64,000 nucleotides of DNA from Haliotis asinina (lineage: Eukaryota; Mollusca; Gastropoda; Lepetellida; Haliotidae): assembly GCF_037392515.1 (NCBI RefSeq), contig NC_090288.1, forward strand, positions 7,247,501-7,311,500, given 5' to 3'. The notes below the pieces were generated by a model. The model worked only from the letters and a program-made list of their open reading frames with translations. It was not told where the DNA came from and ran no database searches. Of this stretch, positions 435-63,595 are shown piece after piece. The translations under genes were made by a program, and so were the position numbers. Within the stretch, counting starts at the first letter, position 1, and every line of letters starts with the position of its first letter.

Positions 435-12945
<12,511 letters not shown>

Positions 12946-28556: not shown

Positions 28557-29009
28557 CAAGGGGCATAACTCCTACTTTACTGAAAGGCGAATACCACTAG
28601 AAACTACGCACTTCAACTACCACTACTCTGTTACTGTAAAAAAAACCAAATAATGGTCATGCTGGTATCAGTTATAAAACATTTCGGTCAACATTTTTCA
28701 CTGTTTGGGGACACATCTGTCTGATTCGCCCCATGTTTCTACAAACTGCCGACGTTTCTACGAATAAGTGCATTAGCAAATCTATACAAAAAAGAAAGAA
28801 ACTTGCGGAACTTTAAATGTCTGTTTGTCAGAGGTATACTGAGTTACAAGAAAATGTTCATTTTACTTTTCTGACTTTTCAAAAGTGAGACTCCTTCCGC
28901 CCGGTGCTCATTCCAAATATTTGTCTAGGAATTGTAATTAATTTATTGCATGTTTGAAAATATTTTAATGCGATCGGTATTTGCTATCAGTTTACGAATT
29001 GAGTTAACA

Positions 29010-29165
29010 ATGCTAGGTCTAATGTCACCTCAACTAAGGGGCAAAACCTTGTGGCCGAAAATCCAGGTTCAATTCTCAACATGGATACAATGTGTGAAGC
29101 CCATTTCTGATGTCTCCCGTAATATTGTTGGAATATTGCTAAACGCGACCAATCGACACAGTAAC
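29010..29165 (+). mobile_element. SINE-A copy, head partly lost
   Basis: It retains CAGGTTCAATTCTCAACATG, ACAATGTGTGAAGCCCATTT, TGTCTCCCGTAATATTG and GGAATATTGCTAAACGCG. Located in the CFAP100-SPEC3 intergenic region. Confidence 0.75.
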
Positions 29166-29239
29166 AGTACACAAGAAGTTTTGTCCACGGTAACATGACA
29201 AGTATTGTTAGTGTGGGGAGTTCTAAGGTTTTAAAATAC

Positions 29240-29506
29240 CCGTGAATGTCCCGGGGTAGAGTAGGCCTTCAGCAACCCATGCTTGCCATAAAAGGCTACT
29301 CTGCTTGTCGTAAGAGGCGACTAACAGGATCGGGTGATCAGGCTTGCTGATGACACATGTCATCGGTTCCCTATTGTGCAGATCGATGCTCATGTTGTTG
29401 ATCACTGGATTGTCTGGTCCAGACTCGATTATTTACAGACCGTCGCCATATAGCTGGAATAGTGCTGAGTGCGGCGTAAAACTAAACTCACTCACTCACT
29501 CACTAA
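29240..29506 (+). mobile_element. SINE-B copy, full length
   Basis: Runs from CCGTGAATGTCCCGGGGTAG through GCTTGTCGTAAGAGGCGACT, TTGATCACTGGATTGTCTGG and ATATAGCTGGAATAGTGCTG to a CACTCACTCACT tail. With 46231-46503 it defines the full unit in this window. Confidence 0.9.
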
Positions 29507-47100: not shown

Positions 47101-50100
47101 ACATGATATGTCTTTGTACTAAATTTCACAAATTACATCAACAGTTTTGGATTTGTTTTTGAATGTTTGTGACAATATCAGTAAGTCTGGGGTTGTTCTG
47201 GGGAATGGACTGTATTATTGGACTGTGGGACAGATGAAATTGGTAGTGATTACATTGGAGTCAGTGAAATATGACAAAGGTGAGGTTGCCTGAATTCACT
47301 ACTACTATCTGTAATAAAGGTGAACTGCCAGGTACTGACAACTCTGATCAGTATGTAGAACTTGTTGTTTCATGGAGGCATGAAGATGATGACATTTGCA
47401 TGAATTTAGGGAACTTGAAATACTGTTGCAGAAATTGCAGAGGGTAGCAAAGGATGGTCATTAGCTGCCGACCCCGCTCTCTCCCGTAAAGCATGACCAG
47501 TTCCAAGATTTTACTGGGACCATTTGACCTCATCCCATTCTCATTCCATCCTGTTTGTCTGTTGCAGATTGTGTATGTGTGTTGTGAACGATTGCTGGAG
47601 CTTGCCTCAAGAGGTAACTCTCTACAGAAGACACGGAGTACCTTGTCCATGTCAGATCTACAGCCTGACCTACTTAAAAGAAGTGAAAACAATGTCAAAA
47701 CCAAAGACAGTGGTAGTGTATCTGGCTGTGGTGGAGACTGCGTCTCAAGCAAGAGCAACACATCAACAAGCCCTCAAGGGTCTTCTGAAGATCCATCTCT
47801 CTGGATTGTGGAGGCCTTAACTGAAGCAGACTATTCTGATATTGTACTGAAGAAAGTGGCTGATTTTGAGGTTAGTTGGTTTACTTCTGTGTCCAATGCC
47901 ACACTCAATATGAGTGGTGCATGAATAACATGATCAAGTCGTTGAATTGTGCTATTGAATGTCAAATATCATATCAGTGTTATCGCTGGCATGCAGAGAC
48001 ATGTAACTGAGACATGATTGCAGGCTTTGGAATGTTTCCATGATGTCCGTCGACCAAACTTGTTCGTCATGCTGTGTTTGACAAAGGCTTGTCTTCCAGA
48101 AAGTCAGTAATTGTCAAGTATCAAGTGGTAATAATAAAAATAATCATCCTCTGTGTGCTACAATCTCCAAACACAAAATGAATGCTGACAGTGCTTAATC
48201 AGACACTGATTCTTATTACCCTGGATAACCCAAGCTGCCTGTTAGGTGCTAGAAGGTTACAGTCACATGACTTAGCCAACCAGTTACCCATATTCTGCTG
48301 GATGAACAGGGGCAATTTTGAACAAACTCACTTGCCTAAGGTGAGACATGTATCACATGTACTTCCTTGTAGGGCAGAACTGTCCTAGAAACTCTCAGGA
48401 GTCAAAGTTGACAAAAAAGGTTCACCCATCCGAGGACTGTCCAAGCTTGACATTACTTAATTTCAGCTGATTTGTGACCCTGAGCTCTGTGGTCTGTTAC
48501 GTCAAGCAACTTTACCAGAGTGAAGTGTTATGATACAAAAAATGATCTTATTGCAATTACTACCATTAAACTCTGCTGTATGTGAATTGTGACCATGCAA
48601 GGGATGTCCCCAAAGTGGTCGGCTTCACTGTATTCTCAGTGTCCAGTGATAGAAAAGCTTCCATTTTTTTTGGAAGGAATCATTAGTAAAGGCATATCCA
48701 GACTTTCACATATGTGGTTATGTGATATTTGTCAACACAACATATTGGGATGTAATATTTCCTTAAACATTGCAGAAAGTGAAAAATAATCTGTCATTTG
48801 GTACCTCTTGGATGATGGCATGCACTCAGATAATATGATATAAAATATGGTCAGTATAGTATGGATGACATCACGTCATAATCACCATTCAAAGATTTGG
48901 ATTGCTTGATTTATATTTATATTTTAATCTTTCAAAAACATTTTGTCCAGGCGTTCAAGTTGGCACTGTTTACAATGTATTGAGAGCTGACATTTGTGTG
49001 ACCATACAGTATTTTGTTTCAACCCTTGGCATCGTGTATGGATAAGTGAAAACATTAGAATAAGTTATGTCCTTTTGATTACGTCATCTGAAAGTGGGAG
49101 ATATTTTGTTTCCTGAAGCTAGTGATGCAATATTGCTTATTTTCCATATTTTGGGGTACCAAGATAAAATGTTAGACAAAACATTGATCATAAGGCTGGA
49201 ACAATTTGCTTGAGCTTGACAGGTAATATGTAGAAATGTAAAACATGAAAACAGTTGCATTTTTACGTTTGTCTAGGTGAGGCCAACCACTTTTCGGACA
49301 CCCCTTGTAATTTAAGTGGAATAATCATCTTCATTGCATTCCGAAGCTCCATTTCACACACTGCTGTTGTCATCTTTAAGCTGATCACACATGACTTGAG
49401 CACATCCATACATACCTAGTGGTCTGTGTTACAGGAAGCACTGAACCAGACTGATGAAGCTTGGAGCATGATTGCACAGGAGCAGGATCCTGTCATCCTC
49501 AGTCTCCTCATGTGGGATTGGCTGGACCAATTGAGTGTAAGTAGCAAGTCATGGTCATCCTCTGTCTCCTCCTGTGGGAGCGGCTAGACAAACTGAGTGT
49601 AATTAGCAGGACATGCTCATCCTCTGTCTCCTCCTGTGGGAGTGGCTGGACCAACTGATTGTGAGTACCAGGACATGGTCGTCCTCTGTCTCCTCCTGTG
49701 AGAGCGGCTGGACCAAATGAGTGTAAGTAGCAGGACATGGTCATCCTCTGTCTCCTGTGAGAGCACCTGTACCAACTGGGTTTACATAGCAAGACATAGT
49801 GTCCTCAGTGTCCTCCTCTTTGAGTGACTTGACTGACTGAGTGTATGTACCAGGATATGGTCGTCCTCTGTCTCCTTATCTGGGAGTCGCTGGACCAACT
49901 GAGTGTGATTAGCAGGAAATGGTTGTCCTCTATCTGCTCCAGTGGGAGCGGCTGGACCAACCGAGTGTAAGTAGCATTACATGATCGTCATCAGCATCCT
50001 CCTTTCTTGAGCGACTGGACAAAATGAGTGTACATAGCAGGTTATGGTCGTCCTCTGTCTCCTCATGTGGGAGCAGCTGGACGAAATGAGTGAAACTTCC

Positions 50101-53100
50101 AGGACCTGTTCGTCCTTTGTCTCCTGCTATGGGAGCAGCTGGACCAACCAAGACAGTATATTGTTGTCTTCAGTCTCCTCCTATGGGAACTGCTGGACCA
50201 ACAGTGTGTAAGTACTATTACATGGTCGTCCTCTGTCTCCTCCTGTGGGAGCAGCTGGACCAACCGGGTGTACATAGGTAGATAAAGTCTTTTCTTTGTC
50301 CTCCTTTTTTTGAGCTACTGGACCAAGTGAGTGTAAGTAGCAAGATATGGTCGTCCTCTGTCTCTTCATCTGGGAGTTCCTGGTCCAACTGAGTGTAAGT
50401 GTCAGGATATAGTCGTCCTTAGTCTCTTCCTGTGGGACCTGCTGCATTGACTGAGTGAAAGTAGCAGGATATTGTCGTCTTGTCTCCTCTTGTGGGAGCG
50501 GCTTGACAAACTGTAAGTAGCATTGCATAGTCATCCTCTGTCTCCTCATGTGGGAGTGGTAGAACGAAATGAGTTTGAGTAGATGGTCATGGTTGTTCTT
50601 TGGCTCCTCCTGTGGAAGCAGCTGGACCAAATGAGTGAAACTTCCAGGACATGTTCGTCCTCTGTCTCCTGCTATGGGAGCAGCTGGACCAACCAAGTGT
50701 AAATAGCAGGATATGGTCGTCTTCAGTCTCCTCATGTGGGGGCAGCTAGACCAAATGAGTGAAACTTCCAGGACATGTTCGTCCTCTGTCTCCTGCTATG
50801 GGAGCAACTGGACCAACCGAGTGTAAATAGCAGGACATGGTCGTCCTCAGTCCCTTCCTGTGGGACCTGCTCCATGAACTGAGTGTAAGTAGCAGGATAT
50901 TGTCGTCGTCAGTCTCCTCCTGTGGGAGCAGCTGGACCAACTAAGTGTAAGTAGCAAGACATATTCGTCCTCTGTCTCCTCATGTGGGAGTGGTAGGATG
51001 AAATGAGTTTGAGTAGCAGGTCATGGTCATTCTCTGTCTCCTTCTGTTTGAGTGGCTGGACCAACTGAGTGTATGTCGCAGGATATGTTCCTCCTCTGTC
51101 TCCTCCTGTGGGAGTGGCTGGACCAACTGATTGTGAGTACCAGGACATGGTCGTCCTCTGTCTCCTCCTGTGAGAGCGGCTGGACCAAATGAGTGTAAGT
51201 AGCAGGACATGGTCATCCTCTGTCTCCTGTGAGAGCACCTGTACCAACTGGGTTTACATAGCAAGACATAGTGTCCTCAGTGTCCTCCTTTTTGAGCGAC
51301 TTGACTGACTGAGTGTATGTACCAGGATATGGTTGTCCTCTGTCTCCTTATCTGGGAGTCGCTGGACCAACTGAGTGTAATTAGCAGGAAATGGTTGTCC
51401 TCTATCTGCTCCAGTGGGAGCGGCTGGACCAACCGAGTGTAAGTAGCATTACATGATCGTCCTCAGCATCCTCCTTTCTTGAGCGACATGTAGCATGACA
51501 TGTTCAGTTACACATGCTTTCATCAAATACAAGTGTAAAGACACCTCTTCCTCATCAGTTTCCAAATGAGAAGAAAACATTCACAAACGACTACAAAGTG
51601 GACGGATGAATTGAGATATAGAACAAGGAGACCTGAGTTTTACACAGATTTGCAGTGACCATTTCTCATAGATGAATGATCTTGTACACTAGAAAAGTAT
51701 GACACCATTAATGCGCTATCACAGTGTAGAAAGTTGTCCTAGGCATTGTTCAGCCCAAATGCCAGTTATCTTTCCATGAATCACTTAAACAAAAACACTT
51801 GTGGTTTTGACACTACCAGAATTCACAACAGCTTCAATACAGACGGCACATGTCCTGAAACAACGGCAGGATTCCTCTAGGTGAACCTGCACCAAGCACC
51901 TGCCGCTTCTCCACTGCAACCTGCTGTCCTTGACCTTGATCTTCAAAACACATCATCCTTCACTTTTGCACAACTTTTTACTGCTTCTTGATGTTCTTGA
52001 CCATCATGCTCTTGATGAGTTTTTCAACGAAGCAAATGAGGTCCCTTGTGGTGTTGGGCTTCATCTTGGGCCAGTCATCCATGGACTCTGGTCCGTGTCG
52101 GGATAGGACCTCCTGGCGCACTGATTGGTGTGTGAGGTGAGACAGGAGACGTTCCAGGAGACTCTGTTGGAGGCTGCTGGAGATAGGCTGCAGCTTGATG
52201 ATCACTCGGGACAGGTACTCCAGCAGGTACTTCACCCCCTGGCCAGGAAGAATAAAGGGATGAGGATTATGTTTACTGTTTTACGCCAATAATCAAGGTA
52301 TATCATCTTTCTTGAGCGACTGGACAAAATGAGTGTACATAGCAGGTTATGGTCGTCCTCTGTCTCCTCATGTGGGAGCGACTGGACCAACTGAGTGTAA
52401 GTAGCATTACATGGTCATTCATGGGAATGTCTGGACCAAATGAGTGTAAGTACCAGGAAATAACGTTCTGAGTCCCCTCATGTGGGAGTGACTGAACCAT
52501 CTGAGTGTACGTAGGAGTAGCAGGATATTGTCATCTTCAGTCTCCTCTTGTGGAACGGCTGGGCAAACTGAGTGTAAACAGCATTGCATAGTCATCCTCT
52601 GTCAGGACATGGTTGTTTTCTGTCTCCTCCTGTGCAAGTGGTTGCACGAGCTGAGTTCGAGTAGCAGGTCATGGTTGTCCTTTGACTCCTCATGTGGGAG
52701 TGGCTGGATGAACTGAGTGAAAGTAGCATTACATGGTCATCCTGTCTCCTCCTGTGGGAGCAGCTGGACTAACGGAGTGTATGTGGCAGGACATGTTCGT
52801 CCTCTCTCTCCTGATATGGGAGCAACTGGACAAAGCGAGTGTAAATAGCAGGATATTGTCGTCTTCAGTCTCCTCTTTTGGGAGTGCAAGTAGCAGGACA
52901 TAATGTCCTGAGTCTCCTCATGTGGGAGTGACTGGACCATTTGAGTGTACGTAGCAGTACATAGTGTCCTCTTTCTCCAGTGGGAACTGCTGGACCAACT
53001 GAGTGTAAGTAACAAGACATGGTTGTCCTCAGTCACCTCACATTGCTGGACGAACTGAGTGTAAGGAGCAGGACATGGTCATTCTCTGTCTCCTCATGTG

Positions 53101-55949
53101 GGAGCAGCTGGATTAGCTGTGTGTACATAGCAGGACATCGCTTCCTCTGTCTCCTCCTGTGGGAACAGATGGACCAACTGAGTGCATGTAGTAGGACATG
53201 GTCGTCCTGAGTCTCCTCATGTGAGAGTAGCTGGACCAACTGAGTGTACGTCGCAGTACATAGTGTCCTCCTTTTTTGAGCGACTGGACCAACTGAGTGT
53301 AAGTAGCAGGACATGGTCATCCTTTGTCTCCTCCTGTGGAAGCGGCTGGAGGAACTGATTGTAAGAAACAGGATATGGTGGTTGTCCTCAGTCACCTCAT
53401 ATTGCTGGACCGACTGAGTGTAAGGTGCAGGATATGGTCATTCTCTGTCTCCTCCTGTGGGAGCAGATGGACCAACTGAGTTCATGTAGTAGGACATGGT
53501 CGTCCTCTCTCTCCTCATGTGAGAGTAGCTGGACCAGCTGAGTGTTCATAGCAGGACATTTCCGTCCTCAGTCCACTCATGTGGGAGCGGCTGGACCGAG
53601 TGTAAGTAGCAGGACATGGTTGTCCTCTGTCTTCTTATGTGGGAGCAGCTGGACCAGCTGTGTGTACGTAGCAAGACATCGCTTCCTCTGTCTCCTCCTG
53701 TGGGAACAGATGGACCAACTGAGTGCATGTAGTAGGACATGGTCGTCCTGAGTCTCCTCATGTGAGAGTAGCTGGACCAACTGAGTGTACGTCGCAGTAC
53801 ATAGTGTCCTCCTTTTTTGAGCGACTGGACCAACTGAGTGTAAGTAGCAGGACATGGTCATCCTTTGTCTCCTCCTGTGGAAGCGGCTGGAGGAACTGAT
53901 TGTAAGAAACAGGATATGGTGGTTGTCCTCAGTCACCTCATATTGCTGGACCGACTGAGTGTAAGGTGCAGGATATGGTCATTCTCTGTCTCCTCCTGTG
54001 GGAGCAGATGGACCAACTGAGTTCATGTAGTAGGACATGGTCGTCCTCTCTCTCCTCATGTGAGAGTAGCTGGACCAGCTGAGTGTTCATAGCAGGACAT
54101 TTCCGTCCTCAGTCCACTCATGTGGGAGCGGCTGGACCGAGTGTAAGTAGCAGGACATGGTTGTCCTCTGTCTTCTTATGTGGGAGCAGCTGGACCAGCT
54201 GTGTGTACGTAGCAAGACATCGTGTCCTCTGTCTCCTCATGTGGAAGTGACTGGAGCATCTGAGTGTAAGTAGGAGGATATGGTTGTCCTGTCTGCTCCT
54301 GTGGAAGTGGCTGGACCAAGTGAATGTAAGTAGCATGACATGTTCGTCCTCTGTCTCCTCATGTGGCGGGACCAGGTGAGTGTAGTGGCAAGATATGGAT
54401 GTCCTCAGTGTCCTCATGTGGATGGACCAACTGACTGAGGACAACCTGAGCGTAAGTAGCAGGATTTGGTCATGTGGGAGAATCTGGGCTAATGTAACTA
54501 GTAAGACTTGGTTTCTATTCTTTGGACAACAGAGAGCTTGAATTTTAGTGTCCTGCATGACGTGATAGCTATGTTTAGAATTAGCCCTTGCTAAACTTCT
54601 TGATGGCTTATGAAGTAGATGCTTTACACACTATTAATTCTCATGTATGCAAGTAAACTTAAATGATACAAAGTGTTTGTGTACATTCCTTGCATCCAAT
54701 TAACAATCCTATCTAAACTTTGGCCTCAACCGATGCTGTTTTTCTCCGTTGTCCTTGCTAACTTCAAGGGAGATTTGTATTTTTATTGACCCATGGTTGT
54801 ATGGAAAGAACAACTTCATTGTTACAAGTGGTAGTGTATCTTTGAAGGTCTTACACTGTTATCAAGTGAGATGAACAAACATTTCTCCGTGTGAGAAAGG
54901 AGTTGTCCATCCATATATGTTCCTTTGTCCTTCAACTTTTAAAATGCATCTCATGGAAGTCATATTAATGTTAGATAAAACAGTATGTGAGATTGCGTGT
55001 GTGACATGTTTTCAGGAGCCTGCTTTGTCAGCTCAGGATTTGCTGACCCTGCTGGGGAGCAGTGAACCCCCACTCGATGCTCTGTTCAAGGTGGAGAAGG
55101 TGAGACATCTTCCTGTTACTGTAAATTCCTAGTGTTTCTTCGGAGAAACCTGCAGTGTGGCAGGACACTCAATGTGTTTCACTAGTCACCAGCGGGACAT
55201 GGGTTGATGTACCCTCTGTGTTTGTTTATTTTCTGAAAACATGACCTCTGTGTGACAGGGCATCACGACTTTGGGCCAAAAAAAACAAAGAATTTTTTTT
55301 TTTAATTTTGTCCATTAATTTCAGTGTTTGGTGTTTTCTCATTCTTTGTGGTTTGGTCAGTCAACTGTTGGCTGTGTGGAGTTGCACATGCTCATGCCAG
55401 GACCCCCTGAATTAGGGCTGCACGTCCAGGTTTCCCTGATTGTGATGTTGTGTGCAAACCAAACGACTGGCAGTTCTCAATGCACAGCTCTTCTGTACAT
55501 TTAGATGATTGTTATACTGCAAGCAAAACCAAAGTCAGTCTTATACTCACATTCAGATCAGATTGGATGATAGGTATGGTAGCAAATTGATGATATGTCT
55601 GTTGCAGACTTAAATTACAGATGATGTACCTTGATTATTGGCGTAAAACAGTAAACATAATCCTCATCCCTTTATTCTTCCTGGCCAGGGGGTGAAGTAC
55701 CTGCTGGAGTACCTGTCCCGAGTGATCATCAAGCTGCAGCCTATCTCCAGCAGCCTCCAACAGAGTCTCCTGGAACGTCTCCTGTCTCACCTCACACACC
55801 AATCAGTGCGCCAGGAGGTCCTATCCCGACACGGACCAGAGTCCATGGATGACTGGCCCAAGATGAAGCCCAACACCACAAGGGACCTCATTTGCTTCGT
55901 TGAAAAACTCATCAAGAGCATGATGGTCAAGAACATCAAGAAGCAGTGA
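38152..55949 (+). CDS. PTPDC1: PTPDC1-type protein tyrosine / dual-specificity phosphatase
   Basis: Cysteine-based phosphatase; human PTPDC1 is linked to cilium length, substrate unknown to me. Thirteen coding exons: 38152-38221, 39294-39459, 42122-42202, 42728-42843, 43409-43430, 44015-44121, 44432-44519, 45827-45916, 46847-46946, 47568-47870, 49435-49536, 55016-55099, 55689-55949 (1590 nt, 529 aa, phases consistent). The N-terminal part has QCVMFCGGKKCKY. The catalytic domain has GIKTVINLQVPGEHASCG, the acid loop FGWTDHGV (Asp154) and the P-loop HCHAGHGR (Cys183, Arg189), so active-site residues are intact. A conserved helical C-terminus ends NIKKQ. The start is the first in-frame ATG after a TGA in the same exon. 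The product is about 230-280 residues shorter than human, mainly in the disordered linker (exon 10). Oddities: intron 2 is GC-AG; exon 5 has 22 nt; intron 11 is filled with copies of exon 11's end and an inverted copy of exon 13. I cannot exclude an extra exon within 47871-49434. Confidence 0.94.
39715..39850 (-). mobile_element. SINE-A copy, reverse orientation
   Basis: GAGTGAGTTG tail complement, GCAATATCATGGCAGGGGAG, ACACCAGAAATGGGCATCAC and a head ending CAAGGCAACCCCACC. In PTPDC1 intron 2, beside a short SINE-B scrap at about 39.66 kb. Confidence 0.8.
39878..41952. mobile_element. Fossil DIRS-like remnant in PTPDC1 intron 2
   Basis: Broken, non-coding fossil of a DIRS-like tyrosine-recombinase retroelement. 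The left end (about 39878-40100) and the right end (about 41640-41952) are inverted terminal repeats with CTCCTTTGGGTACATATAAG and its counterpart. Inside are a short ORF1-like Cys/His stretch (about 40500-40740) and a scrap of the reverse transcriptase region (about 41250-41300). Most of the coding interior is gone. A MITE is inserted in it. Same family as the element at 57.0-62.4 kb. Confidence 0.75.
40711..41149. mobile_element. 439-bp MITE inserted in the DIRS remnant
   Basis: The left end TCATTCTCTTCCCACAGAGG and right end GGGAAGAGAATGA are inverted; homology continues through GGTTACTTGTCA and AACCTCTGTTCTAATACG for about 60 bp. The interior has no transposase-like ORF. Confidence 0.8.
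42855..43015 (-). mobile_element. SINE-B copy, reverse orientation
   Basis: CAGTGATCAACAACATGAAC, GGGAACCGATGATGTGTCC and CACCCGATCCCGTTAATTGC are complements of the SINE-B core. It begins about 15 bp after the donor of PTPDC1 exon 4. Confidence 0.8.
43409..43430 (+). other. 22-nt micro-exon of PTPDC1
   Basis: TTTTTCAG precedes it and GTGAGT follows it. It encodes IFFYNFGW together with flanking codon parts, immediately before the catalytic acid loop WTDHG. Skipping would remove part of the catalytic core and shift the frame. Confidence 0.88.
43655..43985 (+). mobile_element. SINE-B copy carrying an inserted MITE
   Basis: GGCGACTAACAATTTCGGG and GGTTGACACGTG are followed by a 145-bp insertion, after which GACACGTGTCATGG resumes the SINE, continuing to GATCACTAGACTGTCTGG. 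In PTPDC1 intron 5. Confidence 0.85.
43719..43863. mobile_element. 145-bp MITE with 8-bp target duplication
   Basis: The insertion lies in a SINE-B copy and is flanked by GACACGTG at 43711-43718 and 43864-43871, while intact SINE-B has this 8-mer once. The ends start GGA and share TATACTGG in inverted orientation. An 8-bp duplication fits a hAT-like non-autonomous element. Confidence 0.75.
44950..45572. mobile_element. ~0.6-kb TIR element in PTPDC1 intron 7
   Basis: Inverted ends share TTACACTCCA, CTGAGTCTAACAAAACCT and GTCAGGTAACCTTTGAG (left about 44990-45050, right about 45482-45542), with looser outer homology around GTTTAGTCTGC. No transposase ORF. Non-autonomous DNA element of uncertain superfamily. 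Confidence 0.8.
46231..46503 (+). mobile_element. SINE-B copy, full length
   Basis: ACCCGTGAAGGTCCCGGGGT, GTCGTAAGAGGCGACTAACG, GGGATCGGGTGGTCAGGCTC, GTTGATCACTGGATTGTCTG, TATAGCTGTAATATTGCTGA and a CACTCATTC tail. In PTPDC1 intron 8. Confidence 0.9.
49486..51503 (+). repeat. 62-bp minisatellite made from PTPDC1 exon 11, left half
   Basis: Starts in the coding exon: its last 51 nt (codons DPVILSLLMWDWLDQLS) plus 11 nt of intron (GTAAGTAGCAA) are the first unit. Later units read DMVILCLLLWERLDQLS-like, then GTAAGTAGCAG, then the next unit. Spacing is 62 bp (for example TCTGTCTCC at 49561, 49623, 49685 and 49747), with some shortened units. About 32 units here. Many keep GTAAGT; others have GTAATT or GTGAGT. 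A block at about 49600-49990 recurs at about 51072-51480. Confidence 0.93.
51504..52308 (-). pseudogene. Inverted copy of PTPDC1 terminal exon 13 and flanks
   Basis: Reverse-strand copy of 55619-56434: intron end, acceptor (TTCCTGGCCAG), the whole coding part of exon 13 (stop at 51980-51978) and about 0.5 kb of 3' UTR. The encoded 86 residues from MKYLLEYL to NIKKQ are identical to the original; the stop is TAA instead of TGA, and few other differences are visible. It is antisense to the gene and so cannot join the PTPDC1 mRNA. It sits in the middle of the 62-bp array. No poly(A) tail, and it contains intron sequence, so it is not a processed pseudogene. A collapsed or mis-joined assembly is an alternative. 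Confidence 0.93.
52309..54500 (+). repeat. 62-bp minisatellite from PTPDC1 exon 11, right half
   Basis: The same units continue in the same orientation after the inverted exon copy, about 34 of them, more diverged towards 54.5 kb. A higher-order period of 541 bp is visible: ACATCG at about 53135, 53676 and 54217, with near-identical blocks between. Confidence 0.92.
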
Positions 55950-56434
55950 AAAAAGTTGTGCAAAAGTGAAGGATGATGTGTTTTGAAGATCAAAGTCAAG
56001 GACAGCAGGTTGCAGTGGAGAAGCGGCAGGTGCTTGGTGCAGGTTCACCTAGAGGAATCCTGCCGTTGTTTCAGGACATGTGCCGTCTGTATTGAAGCTG
56101 TTGTGAATTCTGGTAGTGTCAAAACCACAAGTGTTTTTGTTTAAGTGATTCATGGAAAGATAACAAGCATAACTGGCATTTGGGCTGAACAATGCCTAGG
56201 ACAACTTTCTACACTGTGATAGCGCATTAATGGTGTCATACTTTTCTAGTGTACAAGATCATTCATCTATGAGAAATGGTCACTGCAAATCTGTGTAAAA
56301 CTCAGGTCTCTGTGTTCTATATCTCAATTCATCCGTCCACTTTGTAGTCGTTTGTGAATGTTTTCTTCTCATTTGGAAACTGATGAGGAAGAGGTGTCTT
56401 TACACTTGTATTTGATGAAAGCATGTGTAACTGA
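55619..56434 (+). repeat. Right arm of the inverted duplication (terminal exon)
   Basis: The original of the inverted copy at 51504-52308. Arms of about 0.8 kb are separated by 3.3 kb containing the right half of the array and exon 12. Confidence 0.93.
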
Positions 56435-57024
56435 AGACTCATGTTCTTCTATAACAATGATTGAAATTGTTTATTATGTGAAAGTCTGGCTAACATTTAA
56501 TTACACAGTAAACATGTTTTCATACTCCCTGGTCTTAGGACCCCAATTCGTTAACAGTCATACACTCTGCTACATTAGTTGAAAACCTGAGTCAAGTAAG
56601 ATTCTGTTTGATCAAGGCAGCTAAAGATAGTTAACAGAATAACTGTAAAATACTGAAAGTGGTGCCAAGCCTATAACAGACTGATTATTTATTTATTGCA
56701 GTGTCATTTAGTGTTGTACCTGTGCATCAGTAAGCATTAGATTCTCTGACAGATCCACCAATCAAGTAATGACATTTTGTCCATTTCACAGACTAAAATG
56801 GTAACATGAAAACAAAATGATATATAGACAGAATGACTGATGGGCATGTATGACCATTTTTATATTCCAGGGTGATGCTACGTGCTTCTGTGTGCATAAT
56901 CACTCTCTTTAGCCATAAATAATGAACTGTCCCTTACCACCTAAGTAATCAGATATTATTTATTTGGTATCAAATCTAACTGTGGCAATGACACCACAAC
57001 TTTCTACACAAAGCCTTTATTCTT
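55950..57024 (+). other. PTPDC1 3' UTR and downstream spacer
   Basis: About 0.5 kb after the stop is shared with the inverted copy, so the duplication took most or all of a compact 3' UTR. No canonical AATAAA is evident. The rest up to the DIRS-like element shows no gene. Confidence 0.5.
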
Positions 57025-57745: not shown

Positions 57746-58956
57746 TTGTTTCATAATTTGTTACATTTGAGGTGTCTTGTGGAATGCCATCATGACGACC
57801 AAACATGCAATTTTTGTGCTGGCTTCACCCCACAGACCAGAAAATCCCATCGTGCAGATTTTCTTTTTAACTCAAACCTGGTTAAGGGGGACATCTGGGC
57901 ACAGGTTGCTAGGGACCCCTCCCCTTCTCCTATTTCTGTTCCCCTTGCATCACCCTCTGTTTCGCAAGCACCGTTAATGTAAATAGACACAATTAACGCC
58001 TTGTTTTAACAGCAAATGTCATCAGTCCAAACGATGATTGATTCGGCGCTGTCTGGCTTCCGCAAGGAGGTGGATGCCCGGTCAACATCGGGAGGACATG
58101 TTGGTTCGCTTAAGGGAGGCCGCGGCCCAGACTTAGGTCTGGAGAATGCTCCAGGGCAGTCGTCCAGTGGCTCGGCCACATTGACGGCCTTGCCCAGGCC
58201 AGTGGGCAGGCAGCTTGGCTCTGTGCTATCCCTGGGCTTTCGGGAAATCCTCCATTGGGGGCTCTTCTCAGGTGCCCAGGTGACCTACTTTGGGCTCCGG
58301 CAGGGGCGAGTCAAGCGTCTTGGCCCTCCTCAGTCCCTCAGTTCCTTCGTGCTCGGCTTCGGTTGCGCCCTCGGCAAGATCACTGTACGGTGAGAGTTCC
58401 CTGTCCAAGCAGAGTGACGAGGTGGACATGGAGGAGGAGGGGATCAGGGAGGAGTGTAAGACGGAGGTCCCGTCCTCATTTGGCTTGTCGCTGAGGCAGG
58501 TGCGTGCCTCAGGTTGCTATTCCTGTCGCCGAGCCTGACCCCGAGCCTGACCCCTTTGAGTTTCGGCTCCCTGGGGAGGCGTTTGCGCCTACTAAGGTCG
58601 CTGAGGCTCGTTTACGCATGCTTCCGTCACTGGTCAGGGAGATTGTGAATCCTCTCCTGTCTGGGACCCGTTCGCGCTTCGATCTCTTTGAGATCAGCCG
58701 TCGGTACCAGCTGGACGACAATTCGCTTTTTGAGTCGCCAGTGGTGGACGAGTGCGTTTATGCCTCGGTCACTGTGGTGGGGTCCTCCTCCTCTTCCTTT
58801 GCTTCGGCCAGGCAGGGCCGGCGACTGCCTCCCTTCTTCACAGCCGCTCCAGCGCTGAGGTCCGCCTATCGTTCCTCCGAAGAAATGTGTAGGTGTGCGG
58901 CCCAGCAGCTGAGAGTTGCAGTGCATTCAGCATACCTGCCTTGCACAGTCAGCTGA
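57746..58956 (+). pseudogene. ORF1 (gag-like) remnant of the DIRS-like element
   Basis: An N-terminal Cys/His cluster (LRCLVECHHDDQTCNFCAGF) is followed by a Pro/Ser/acidic region and a stretch with LPSLVREIVNPLLSG. The position upstream of the reverse transcriptase fits ORF1. The same Cys/His cluster is present in the intron 2 remnant. Broken. Confidence 0.65.
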
Positions 58957-59532
58957 TGGACCAGGGGAGCACTGTCGACGACTCTCTGTTGGCAGTGTTG
59001 GGCAGGCAGCTCACTGACGTTCATTCTCATCTGGCATGAGACAGCATTAGGTGTTGTGCCAGCCAGATGATGGGTGCCATCATGGGTCTGCACCAGCTAT
59101 GGTTGTCCATAGCCCGGTATTCACCCACTACTCAACAAGCACTCCTGACATTGCCCTACACATTGGGGTTCTCCCTCTTCCCTAGGGCTTTGCAGGTTGT
59201 GCGGGAGGCCGCGGCGGCCCGATAGCACCTTCAAGGACTCTAAGCCCTTGTTGGATCAACCATCCACGTCTCGACAATGTCCTGTTACTCTTGCTTTGGC
59301 TTACCCTTCGGTGCCGGTGAAGGAAGGTGCTAAGTGGGCTGCCCTGCTTCTGCACGAAAGAAGCAAGGGCAAAGGTCCAGCGTTGCTGCAGCAACAGTAG
59401 CCTTTTTTGGGCAAAAGGAAGCATGCCCCGGCTTCCCGTTAAACATTTGCCTAGAGCCCTTGGTGTCCCTCGCACAAGCAGGCAGAGAACTGCCGACTGT
59501 GGGGGTACATAGCTTGCCGCCTACAGGAACCT

Positions 59533-60080
59533 ATGGCAGAAGGCAGTCACTATTCCTTCTGGAATGGCAGGCAGCCACTTCAAAGGGATGGCCATATGCC
59601 ACAGTGGAAGCGAGACCCTCCACACTTCTCAGGGATTCGGCACACGCATGTGCCATTCTCCCGGGAAAAAGCAGAGGTCCTCCATGCCGAGGTCCAGTCG
59701 TTACTGGACAAGGCTGCCATCGAGGTGGTTCCGGAAGGTCAACAAGAAGACGGGTTTTATTCCACATACTTCCTTGTGACCAAGAAGGACGGAGGGTTCA
59801 GACCTATCTTGAATCTCAAGGGTCTGAACAAGCTCATAGAGGTTCCATCCTTTAGGATGGGGACACTGCGGTCAGTGATCTCTTCTGTGGAGACAGGGGA
59901 TTGGCTCACGTCAATCGATCTCAAGGACGCTTACCTCCATGTTCCGATACACTCTGAGTTCAAGAAATACCTTCGGTTTTCGTTCGACGGGAAGTGTTAT
60001 CAGTTTCGGGTTCTACCCTTTGGTATCTCCACAGCACCGAGGGTGTTCACCAAACATATGTTGATTCCGGCTCAGCTAGC
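59533..60080 (+). pseudogene. Reverse transcriptase remnant (DIRS type)
   Basis: Recognised by STYFLVTKKDGGFRPILNLK, WLTSIDLKDAYLHVPIHSEF and YQFRVLPFGISTAPRVFTK, which are typical of DIRS/Ty3-like reverse transcriptases. The element is broken. Confidence 0.9.
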
Positions 60081-60084
60081 CAGG

Positions 60085-60640
60085 TCACAGTGTCTCCGTC
60101 CCTCCTTCAGGAGGCGTGGCAGTTTCTGCTGTGGTGCGACCAGTTCGACATTCGGGTACTCCCCGTTTATCTCCCGGGCATAGACAATGTCCGCGCGGAT
60201 GCGCTATCGAGACGTATACAAGCCCCACACGAGTGGGTGCTGCATCGGGGATATTCGGGATTATGTCCCAGGTAGATCTGTTTGCCTCTGGGGCGACGAA
60301 TCAGATTCCTGTGTTTTGCTCAAGGATACCGGATCCGAGAGTGATAGCCAACGACGCCTTTCTGCTCGATTGGACAGACAGTGCTGTGGGCGTTCCCACC
60401 AGTTCCTCTGATCTCACGAGTCCTCTCGCAGCTGACCGCACAACCGGCTTGGCTACTTGTGCTTCTGGCACCGCTTTGGTCGGCTCAAATCTGGTTTCCG
60501 GTAATTCTCAGGTTTCTGGCTCAGCCTCCTGTTCTATTACCCATTCGACCGGACTTACTATCCCAGAACGGAGCGCCACACCCCAATCCCAGGATTCAGT
60601 GGGTGGCTGGGCCGCTGTCCGGAATCGCCTCCATGTGAGA
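60085..60640 (+). pseudogene. RNase H-type region remnant of the DIRS-like element
   Basis: LPVYLPGIDNVRADALSR is the conserved C-terminal RNase H motif; a region with FPPVPLISRVLSQL and LVLLAPLWSAQIWFP follows, as in other DIRS/Ty3-like polyproteins. Broken. Confidence 0.75.
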
Positions 60641-60656
60641 GGAATTCCTGCATCAG

Positions 60657-61540
60657 TTGCAGACAATTCTGGCTTCGCGGAGGGATTCGACAAACGTTCA
60701 ATATGAGGATAGATGGGCCTGTTATGCGCGCTGGTGTGTCGACAGGGGGATTCTCGATCCCTTTTCTGCAGATCTAGTATCTGTGTTGGAGTTTTTACAA
60801 TCAAAACTGGAAGCCGGTCTGGCCGCTTCTACAGTTAGAGGTTACTCCATGGCAATCTCTGCCTTCCACATTCCTGTCAATGGTGCATTATTGGGGCAGC
60901 GCTTCCTTGCAGGCGTGGACAGAATCCGTCCGTGTGTCCAGCGGATTAGTCCCCCGTGGGACTTGCCAGTCGTTCTTGACTGGCTGTCCGGTCCTCTTTT
61001 TCACAATCTGTCGGCTCTGTCCCTCCAGCTGTTGACATGGAAGACTGCTTTTCTTGTGGCGGTAACTTCTGGCAGGCGGGTAGGCAACATACATGCTATG
61101 TCCGCCAACCCTGAATTAATGGTGTTTCACAAAGACAGAGTGAGCATTCGATTGCCAGATACTTACCGTCCTAAGTGAGATAGCACCTTTCACGTCACGG
61201 CGCCTATTGAGCTTCCTGCTTTCACGCAGCCTTCGCCGCCCGGTACCTCTCTTCGACGTGCTCACGTCTTAGATGTCCATAAGACCCTTAAGGCTTATAT
61301 CAAATGAACAAAAGACATTAGGAAGAATGATCAATTGTTCTGCTGTTATGGTAGTGGCAAGGCTGGCCTTCCGGCAAACAAGCAGACCATATCTAGGTGG
61401 CTTGTCTCTGCCATTTGTATGGGATACACCTCAAAAGGTCGTACGCCTCCTAAGGCATATGCGTCTGCCTTGCCCATTGAGATCTGCTCTGCGTCTATTT
61501 GGAGCCGACCGAGCACATTCATCCGTCATTACCAATTAGA
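60657..61540 (+). pseudogene. Tyrosine recombinase remnant of the DIRS-like element
   Basis: SAM-like N-terminal part (SVLEFLQSKLEAGLAASTVR, YSMAISAFHIPV), then LTWKTAFLVAVTSGRRVGNI with the first catalytic Arg context (T-S-G-R-R). This domain replaces an integrase and separates DIRS elements from LTR types. Broken. Confidence 0.85.
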
Positions 61541-61588
61541 CTGTCAAGCGAGCGTGCTCGGTTTGGCCAGTCGGTTCTCACCAGTGGG

Positions 61589-61627
61589 CAGGGCACGAGT
61601 GCCCTAGCCGATTGAGCTACCCTTGCA
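61589..61627 (-). other. tRNA-like A-box fragment inside the DIRS-like element
   Basis: The minus strand reads GGGTAGCTCAATCGGCTAGG then GCACTCGTGCCC, matching the 5' half of a tRNA (A-box TAGCTCAATCGG). No 3' half or B-box follows, so it is not a tRNA gene; a truncated SINE scrap is likely. Confidence 0.4.
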
Positions 61628-62370
61628 TTTGACGAACGATCATTTGACATTGTAGCTGCAACAAGTAGACTGGTGGTGGTGTCTTACTGTATACTTTCCA
61701 TCTTTTATCCCGGTAGTGGGCTCTATTATGGTGGTGGTATTTTTTGCTTTACTGGTCTAGACTGTCTGAGTCCTTCCCTAGCACCCTGGCTAGTGTATGA
61801 GAATGGACCTTGATATATCGGTCGCCTGTCTCGGCTCCTGTTTTTTTGAGAAAAAAAAAGGGGGGGGACGGGACAATTTTTTAGGCACCCTACGACTTTC
61901 TCGTAGAATGGTAGGGTTAGACCATGTAATAGCCTGGCCCTGGTCCGCACCCCCGCCGCAAGGCACAGAAGGTCACGTGACCAGGTAAGTTTGAGTCCTT
62001 GTTACTTTCAATTCGTAATAAAGGTTATCATCTTATGTCAGGTTTATGAGCAGACAGAATGCCTCTACAGGTTTGTTCGATACTTGTCCTCCTTGGTGTA
62101 CGGCCACCCACCTTCCCACATTCTGTCTGTATTGCTTACAGAACGGAAGTGTTTTGCTTTAGGCTATAGGCTGAAGAGTTACCTGCTCTTGGCTGTCACG
62201 GGGCCAGGGGCCCTGTAGGGGTGGTCTCACAAGACAAAAACGATGTTTTTTGTTTTGTATATATTTTATTGAAAAAATATAGTTACAACTGTCGCAAGAA
62301 CATTTAAATGCTTATAAGTACCCCAAGGAGGACTCTATTCAAAGAATCTGCAACCTCTACAGGTTTGTTC

Positions 62371-63595
62371 GAATTTTTACAGTCTTGGTTAGAGAACAGT
62401 TTAGCCTCATCCACTATCCTAGGCTATTCCACAGCTATTTCAGCATTTTATATTCCTGTCGACGGTGCTTTCTTGGGGCAGCACTTTCTAGTAGGTGTGG
62501 ATAGGATTAGTCCACCATGGACATGTCAGTTGTTCTTGACTGACTGTCCGGTCCTCTTTTTCACAAGCTATCGTCTCTTTCTCTCCAGGTGTTAACTTGG
62601 AAGGCTGCCTTTCTTGTGGTGGTAATGTCTGACAGGCGGATAGGCAACATTCATGCAATATCAGTGGATCCTGCTCTGACTGTCTTTCACGAAGACAGGG
62701 TCAGTGTTAGACGGACGGATTCTTACCATACTAAAATCGCAGGCACTGTTTATGTTACAGCACCTATCGACCTACCTACGCTCATGCAACCTCCCCTGTC
62801 TGGTACCTCTCTTCGACGAGCTCACAACTTAGATATCCGCTGATATCCGGAAAGATAAAGAGTTGTTATGCTGTTATGGAGGAGGGAGAGCTGGTCTGCC
62901 GGCATACAAGCAAACCATTTCTTGGTGGCTTATCTCTGCCATTGCTATTTGGAGCCGGCCGAGTATGTTCATTCGACACTACCAGTTGGACAAACACTCG
63001 TGGGAGTGTGCTCAGTTTGGCCAAACAGTCCTCACCGGTGGGCCGTGCTGTGCAACCCCCCAGCCCCCTCCTGATCAGCGGTCTCGGTGATTGGGCAAGT
63101 GTATTTCTCTCTCTCGCAGCTTCGGCAGTGTTTGAGAATGCGTGATGGGTACATGTTAGCAGACAGAATGCCTCTCCCGACTCATATAGCGTAATACAGA
63201 CTCCCAACGAATGTATGTACCCCAAGGAGGACTTCTTCTGAAAAAGAATTATACAAATGTGTCTTGATTTCTTTGAAGAATGTCCTCCTTGGGGTATGGC
63301 CACCCACCTCCTCACATTCTGTCTGACTAGTTCAGCATGAAAAGTGAGGCATGAGGTAGATAGCGAGAGTTACCTGCTCTTGGCTGTTGGGGGCCCAGGA
63401 AGGGACCCTGTATGGGCCCTGTATGGGTGGTCTCACAAGAGAAAAACAAGGGTTTTTTTGTGAAATATTTATTGAAATGTTGTTACAACTGTCATGGGCA
63501 TTTAAAATGGACATTTTGATGCTATATATGTACCCCAAGGAGGACTTTCTTCAAAGAATTCATAACCTCTACAGGTTTGTATAAATGTTTAATCA
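62371..63595 (+). mobile_element. Second fossil DIRS-like fragment, joined tail to coding
   Basis: Directly after the terminal repeat of the first element comes a related tyrosine recombinase region (about 62371-63100, with FLQSWLENSLASSTILGYST and TWKAAFLVVVMSDRRIGNI) and its own terminal repeat (about 63150-63595, with TACCCCAAGGAGGACTT twice). It is a broken fragment from a separate copy of the family. Confidence 0.8.

Follow-up and report, generated by a model that had tools for sequence, protein, structure and literature searches.

In the window analysed here, a stretch of 64,000 nt from Haliotis asinina, one intron of a phosphatase-family gene carries dozens of copies of a repeat that joins the end of the preceding exon to that exon's own splice donor. 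Such a locus raises a simple question: do these copies take part in splicing, offering the gene additional donors and additional protein segments, or are they a repeat that has spread within an intron? The answer favoured here, with considerable confidence, is that the array is an old minisatellite of the intron, which began when a segment spanning the exon-intron boundary was duplicated in tandem, and which has since decayed and is probably near-inert in splicing.

The parent exon and the 62-bp array

The repeat has its parent in exon 11 (49435-49536, + strand), an exon of 34 codons that, by sequence and translation, is in phase 0 at both ends. Exon 11 is translated as EALNQTDEAWSMIAQEQDPVILSLLMWDWLDQLS and is followed directly on its 3' side by GTAAGTAGCA. 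Its last 51 nt (49486-49536) form the exonic part of the parent unit, and the intron 11 donor, GTAAGTAGCAA (49537-49547, +), forms the intronic part. Downstream of the array lie exon 12 (55016-55099, +; 28 codons, phase 0) and the terminal exon 13 (55689-55949, +), which contains the stop codon and is the parent of an inverted copy discussed below. The phase-0 junction between exons 11 and 12 proposed in the initial annotation is borne out by sequence and translation. The same annotation named the gene PTPDC1, and a tyrosine-phosphatase domain is indeed present upstream of the array, where the joined phosphatase domain passes the Pfam cut-off for DSPc; the PTPDC1 name, which goes back to the human sequence, is putative. 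When single pieces are submitted to Pfam, one phosphatase exon matches no family, another matches DSPc (E = 0.045), and the terminal exon alone gives a match below the cut-off (E = 0.084). Apart from exons 11-13, the exons and splice sites of the gene were located by eye, and every donor and acceptor score given here was obtained with human splice matrices. Donors were inferred for the gene (n = 10); donor 45916 failed the GT check and has no score.

The array unit is 62 bp long, with 51 bases from the exon end and the first 11 bases of the intron, and so, like other exon-intron-boundary repeats, it joins the end of an exon to the donor of the same gene. Units recur to about 54504. Cyclic alignment yields 70 copies after the exon tail, arranged head to tail with a period (62) inside the ~10-100 bp range of minisatellites. 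Sixty-six of these are scorable, having at least 45 aligned bases, and 54 are distinct; counts for the window array leave out the four truncated copies of the 70, and identities between copies and the unit tree use the 54 distinct rows. The copies are on average 85.3% identical to the unit consensus, and TRF reports a period of 62 at 49492-51475 and 52882-54366, among other rows. A chance origin of the array is excluded: allowing ≤3 mismatches, a 24-base core taken from the unit matches at 28 sites in the window, one of them in exon 11 itself, versus a mean of 0.00 in 100 shuffles. The same core has 0 matches in viral contigs.

The derivation of the array from the end of exon 11 (51 nt) and 11 intron bases, as first proposed, is therefore upheld, with 70 copies by cyclic alignment. 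The accompanying statement that the array fills intron 11 is not correct, as an 819-bp insert at 51488-52306 splits it and the last ~500 bp before exon 12 are free of units. The left half (49548-51487, +) was delimited by TRF and cyclic alignment. The right half (52309-54504, +) contains a 541-bp block twice, at 53150-53690 and 53691-54231, and the two are only 2 mismatches apart, which suggests recent growth of the array. A special RNA structure of the array was rejected on a folding test of the first 994 nt of intron 11, whose predicted fold is no more stable than those of shuffled sequences (z = +0.83; 15/20 shuffles at least as stable). Elsewhere in the window, an unconnected tandem array with a 64-bp unit occupies 6840-7183 (5.4 copies, 98% matches), and fragments that by eye resemble a retroelement reverse transcriptase and a tyrosine recombinase are found at 58000-63200.

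A duplicate gene and an inverted terminal exon

A search of the species' own genome with an exon-array query returned at least two places, this locus and a further one on the opposite strand at a distance of about 273 kb; when a different query, drawn from the array interior, was used, the matches listed fell at the same two places. At the further locus lies a colinear duplicate of the gene (C9, about 7019900-7029500), with an array at the same intron. Over the 164 bases around exon 11 the two genes are identical at 150 positions, and exons 11-13 of the duplicate are open, with a dN of 0.042 and a dS of 0.096 against the window gene over 148 codons. Intron 11 of the duplicate holds 38 copies after its exon tail, mostly units of 54 and 56 bases, and TRF assigns this array a higher period of 110 bases. 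Thirty-seven copies were scored, so that counts for the duplicate array leave out one of the 38, and identities and the tree use 13 distinct rows. GTAAGT is present in 34/37 copies, 24 of the 37 are in frame and open, and in conservation the donor window stands 11th among 62. In 13 of the 37 units the exon-like part is 43 nt long, which breaks the reading frame. The second donor of the duplicate would add 54 nt in frame (+18 residues), VSSRMWSSSVSSCASCWS, and is the one of 34 later donors so placed. Given the number of donors kept and this one donor reachable in frame, alternative donor use is more plausible in the duplicate than in the window gene. Another array, with a 52-bp unit (11 copies, 95% matches), lies 3' of the duplicate gene, at 28758-29329 of the reverse-complemented duplicate stretch.

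The insert in the window array consists largely of an inverted copy (51503-52308, - strand) of 55619-56435, identified by alignment, by an exact coding match and by genome search. The two are identical at 802/817 positions (98.2%), with 4 mismatches and 11 gap columns in two gaps. The copy runs from the last part of intron 12 through the terminal exon's coding sequence into the 3' flank; the coding part is identical over 258 nt, and the stop codon is altered by a 2-base gap. A 14-bp array sequence, CTTTCTTGAGCGAC, flanks the insert on the left (51474-51487, +) and again on the right (52307-52320, +). The left junction also carries filler (51488-51502, +), where 16 bases from 51490 are an exact match to the array at 54330, and an uninterrupted counterpart of the insertion site is found in the same array at 49928-50092. 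At least three matches were listed when the terminal exon was searched against the genome: exon 13, the inverted copy and the exon of the duplicate gene. Because the copy includes intron sequence, an origin from spliced RNA is unlikely, and we infer that the insert arose by template switching during repair or replication.

In a pre-mRNA the inverted copy could pair with exon 13, leaving exon 12 in a loop. The copy also contains an AATAAA (52251-52256, +), the sole motif of the AATAAA or ATTAAA type that intron 11 has in sense orientation, and an acceptor scoring 4.0 ends just 5' of it, at 52246. The copy might be the active part of the locus, with either a near-perfect 806-nt pairing with exon 13 or the combination of AATAAA 52251 and acceptor 52246 altering the use of exons 12 and 13. 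Such a role would draw on the closeness of the inverted repeat, 98.2% between arms 51503-52308 and 55619-56435 with exon 12 between them, and on the uniqueness of the AATAAA within the intron. However, the copy looks young, none is present in the duplicate gene among the genome matches listed, and it may be a passing neutral variant; an active role is judged quite unlikely. An assembly artefact, either in the array or in the inverted copy, is by a clear measure harder still to credit. Assemblies often go wrong at tandem arrays and inverted copies, but the second gene has an array with a different unit pattern, and the inverted copy is marked by mismatches of its own, by two gaps, and by the 14-bp flanking repeat and filler.

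Constraint and splicing potential of the copies

The initial annotation described a full donor in every period. By aligned columns, GTAAGT is present in 21/66 copies of the window array, one of which holds an internal insertion, so that the hexamer is uninterrupted in only 20/66; GT is kept in 50/66. When six-column windows are ranked by conservation, the donor hexamer comes 49th of 62 (42nd of 62 if the rows are limited to distinct ones), and its frequency, 21/66 (0.32), matches the product of its six column identities (0.30). Selection for the donor in the window array was rejected on this low rank. The 17-codon exon-like part that had been described stands for a portion of the copies: it is 51 nt long in 38/66, in frame and open in 34/66, and in frame, open and followed by GT in 28/66. 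Open frames number 40, 23 and 50 among the 66 copies in frames 0, 1 and 2, respectively, so the coding frame is not favoured. Over the 66 copies, the ratio of nonsynonymous to synonymous changes relative to expectation is 0.81 in frame 0, 0.82 in frame 1 and 1.86 in frame 2; counting every distinct change a single time gives 0.82, 1.04 and 1.38, respectively. Since the first set of ratios is alike in frames 0 and 1, coding selection on the exon-like part was also rejected. On distinct rows, codon position 2 is somewhat more conserved (0.914) than the other two (0.813 and 0.825), a spread with a permutation P of 0.05, and third positions show no clear excess of change (permutation P = 0.15 for their being the least conserved). 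A gene on the minus strand was considered as well. ORFs there run up to 204 aa, and the 204-aa ORF (50184-50795, -) has no Pfam match; the unit consensus is free of stops in all three minus frames, so long minus-strand ORFs arise mechanically, and this candidate was rejected. The window copies look mostly old, with some recent block duplications, and decayed, with no sign of selection.

Splicing at the internal sites would face further obstacles. It had been suggested that later donors could add in-frame cassettes of 17 residues, but in the window array 0/20 later GTAAGT donors can be reached in frame without a stop; read-through of the first donor meets a TAG at 49585-49587. The companion suggestion of AG-bounded skipping between units meets poor acceptors. 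The unit-end AGs (n = 50) have a median acceptor score of -5.0 and mostly lack a pyrimidine tract; 5/50 score as high as the lowest of the gene's ten inferred acceptors, and 1/50 reaches the intron's own at 55015. The 11-base interval, GTAAGTAGCAG, is too short for an intron. Most simply, the unit-end AG would be that of the exon's own GAGCAG. New introns gained from a boundary duplication need both a usable new donor and a usable new acceptor, and beyond the mostly poor unit-end AGs the scan finds three predicted microexons of 24 nt and one predicted candidate exon of 18 nt (50315-50332). The 24-nt candidates, which are predictions only, come from a weight-matrix scan and are all on the + strand in phase 0: WERLDQPS at 49943-49966 and again at 51415-51438, and WELLDQLS at 52981-53004. 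They correspond to rows (3/70) in which the T of unit position 26 has become A, which yields CTCCAG after a pyrimidine-rich stretch and a better-scoring acceptor inside the unit than the AG at its end. Splicing probably relies on the first donor nearly every time, with the array at most a weak competitor, and the array is probably near-inert in splicing.

Three readings nevertheless assign the copies a function. The array could be a working splicing device, in which later donors or AG skipping add 17-residue cassettes, or in which binding of U1 tunes the use of exon 11. Donor-like sites at least as strong as that of exon 11 are three times denser in the array than in window 1-49400 (6.24 versus 2.02 per kb), GTAAGT is intact in 20/66 window and 34/37 duplicate copies, and the second donor of the duplicate would add its 54 nt in frame. 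Set against this are the counts of later donors reachable in frame and stop-free (0/20 in the window, 1/34 in the duplicate), the weakness of the unit-end AGs described above, a donor that is not preferentially kept in the window, the absence of coding constraint, and the 43-nt exon-like part that breaks the frame in 13/37 duplicate units; a working device is quite improbable. The array might instead breed in-frame microexons of 24 nt, with the leucine-rich CTCTGTCTCCTCCTG serving as a pyrimidine tract and the T to A change at position 26 creating a CAG. The three candidates are all open, in phase and followed by the same donor as exon 11, and their acceptors score 5.62, 5.62 and 3.83, where the gene's ten inferred acceptors have a median of 3.75. 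In-frame candidate exons occur at 0.8 per kb in 49537-54520 and at 0.1 per kb in the part of the window before 49000, and the strong in-frame subset, 3 versus a mean of 0.25, exceeds all 100 column permutations. However, two of the three candidates are copies of each other by block duplication. In the insertion-free array, all candidate pairs together number 15, fewer than the 21.2 that 100 column permutations give on average (87% of them reach 15), and in-frame pairs number 4 versus 2.27 (21% reach 4). The scores derive from a human matrix, and very short exons are poorly recognised without enhancers. On balance, a breeding ground for microexons is highly improbable. The broadest of these proposals, that both arrays are splicing nurseries in which microexons from leucine codons, the donors in nearly every unit of the sister gene, among them the +18-residue one, and the inverted copy would give rise to protein or transcript variants of the phosphatase-family gene, is very hard to sustain.

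Origin of the arrays and comparison with known systems

The decayed-minisatellite reading accounts for the form of the unit. The two ends of the parent unit are alike at 7/9 bases (exon AGGAGCAGG versus intron start AGTAGCAAG, 62 bases apart), and this likeness would have let repair or slippage duplicate the 62-base segment; with a seed of this kind, the AG at the unit end is simply exon sequence. The intronic copy, free to vary, may then have been amplified by unequal exchange. Seeding and amplification are placed, in this proposal, in an ancestor of both duplicate genes, after which each array would have expanded and homogenised separately; template switching would later have set the inverted copy of the terminal exon into the window array. 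Several observations bear on this order. The CCT found in both exon tails at unit positions 4-6 is kept in 0/107 copies with letters there (69 in the window, 38 in the duplicate). Distinct window copies are 75.5% alike mutually and 77.6% like the copies of the duplicate, whereas the exon tails are 95% alike and exons 11-13 of the two genes stand at a dS of only 0.096, which argues that the diversity of the array is older than the gene duplication. This suggests that the array predates the duplication, provided that intron copies do not evolve much faster than synonymous sites and that there was no exchange between the genes. In a unit tree of 62 columns, which is poorly resolved and not cleanly rooted on the exon tails, the units of the duplicate do not form a separate clade and the array copies cluster apart from the exon tails (support 0.73).

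Some results sit less easily with an old, decayed minisatellite. The 34/37 GTAAGT donors and the rank of 11 of 62 in the duplicate could mean selection rather than recent homogenisation, and in the window the conservation of second codon positions (0.914, P = 0.05), the retention of GT in 50/66 copies, the threefold density of strong donor-like sites (6.24 versus 2.02 per kb) and the raised frame 2 ratio of 1.86 also tell against this reading.

Dozens of donors in a row constitute a natural test of how the splicing machinery chooses a donor, and the gene pair sharpens this test, as 20/66 donors are intact in one array and 34/37 in the other behind exon tails that are 95% alike. If the first donor alone is used in both genes, then position or exon definition outweighs donor sequence; if later donors are used, then the sister gene shows boundary repeats feeding new protein segments. 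The locus also holds a minisatellite at an exon boundary whose history seems to reach back beyond the duplication of its gene.

The initial annotation knew of no described case of such a repeat. As to anatomy, that belief fails, since the human CBS gene carries a 31-bp VNTR with a unit made of exon end and donor. This VNTR, at exon 13-intron 13, is written c.1444_1467+7(16_21) and is present in 16-21 copies (PMC2630376, PMC1395315). By its notation its unit joins the last 24 exon bases to 7 intron bases, an anatomy like that of the window array; the 31-bp unit is of invariable length, the copies are fewer, and the VNTR is polymorphic in people. The window array differs in its 70 decayed copies, in the second array of the duplicate gene and in the inverted exon copy. 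Alternative splicing at the CBS VNTR was reportedly described by Lievers in 2001. The title of that work, as it stands in the reference list of PMC2630376, links the VNTR to enzyme activity. A second CBS variant, 844ins68, duplicates an intron-exon junction, and one of the two splice-site copies is strongly favoured (PMC2630376). Tandem duplication across an exon-intron boundary can reuse splice signals to generate new introns, as reported for potato RdRp and for human repeats in segmental duplications (PMC4974935, PMC2812944); those reports are of new introns, and the candidate splice sites inside the window array are predictions. Another intronic minisatellite differs in copy number between individuals (PMC6905558); its unit is 27 bp long and is not known to derive from an exon end. 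The abalone locus is unusual in its copy number, in having arrays in both members of a duplicate gene pair whose donors have decayed to such different degrees, and in the inverted terminal exon lodged within one array.
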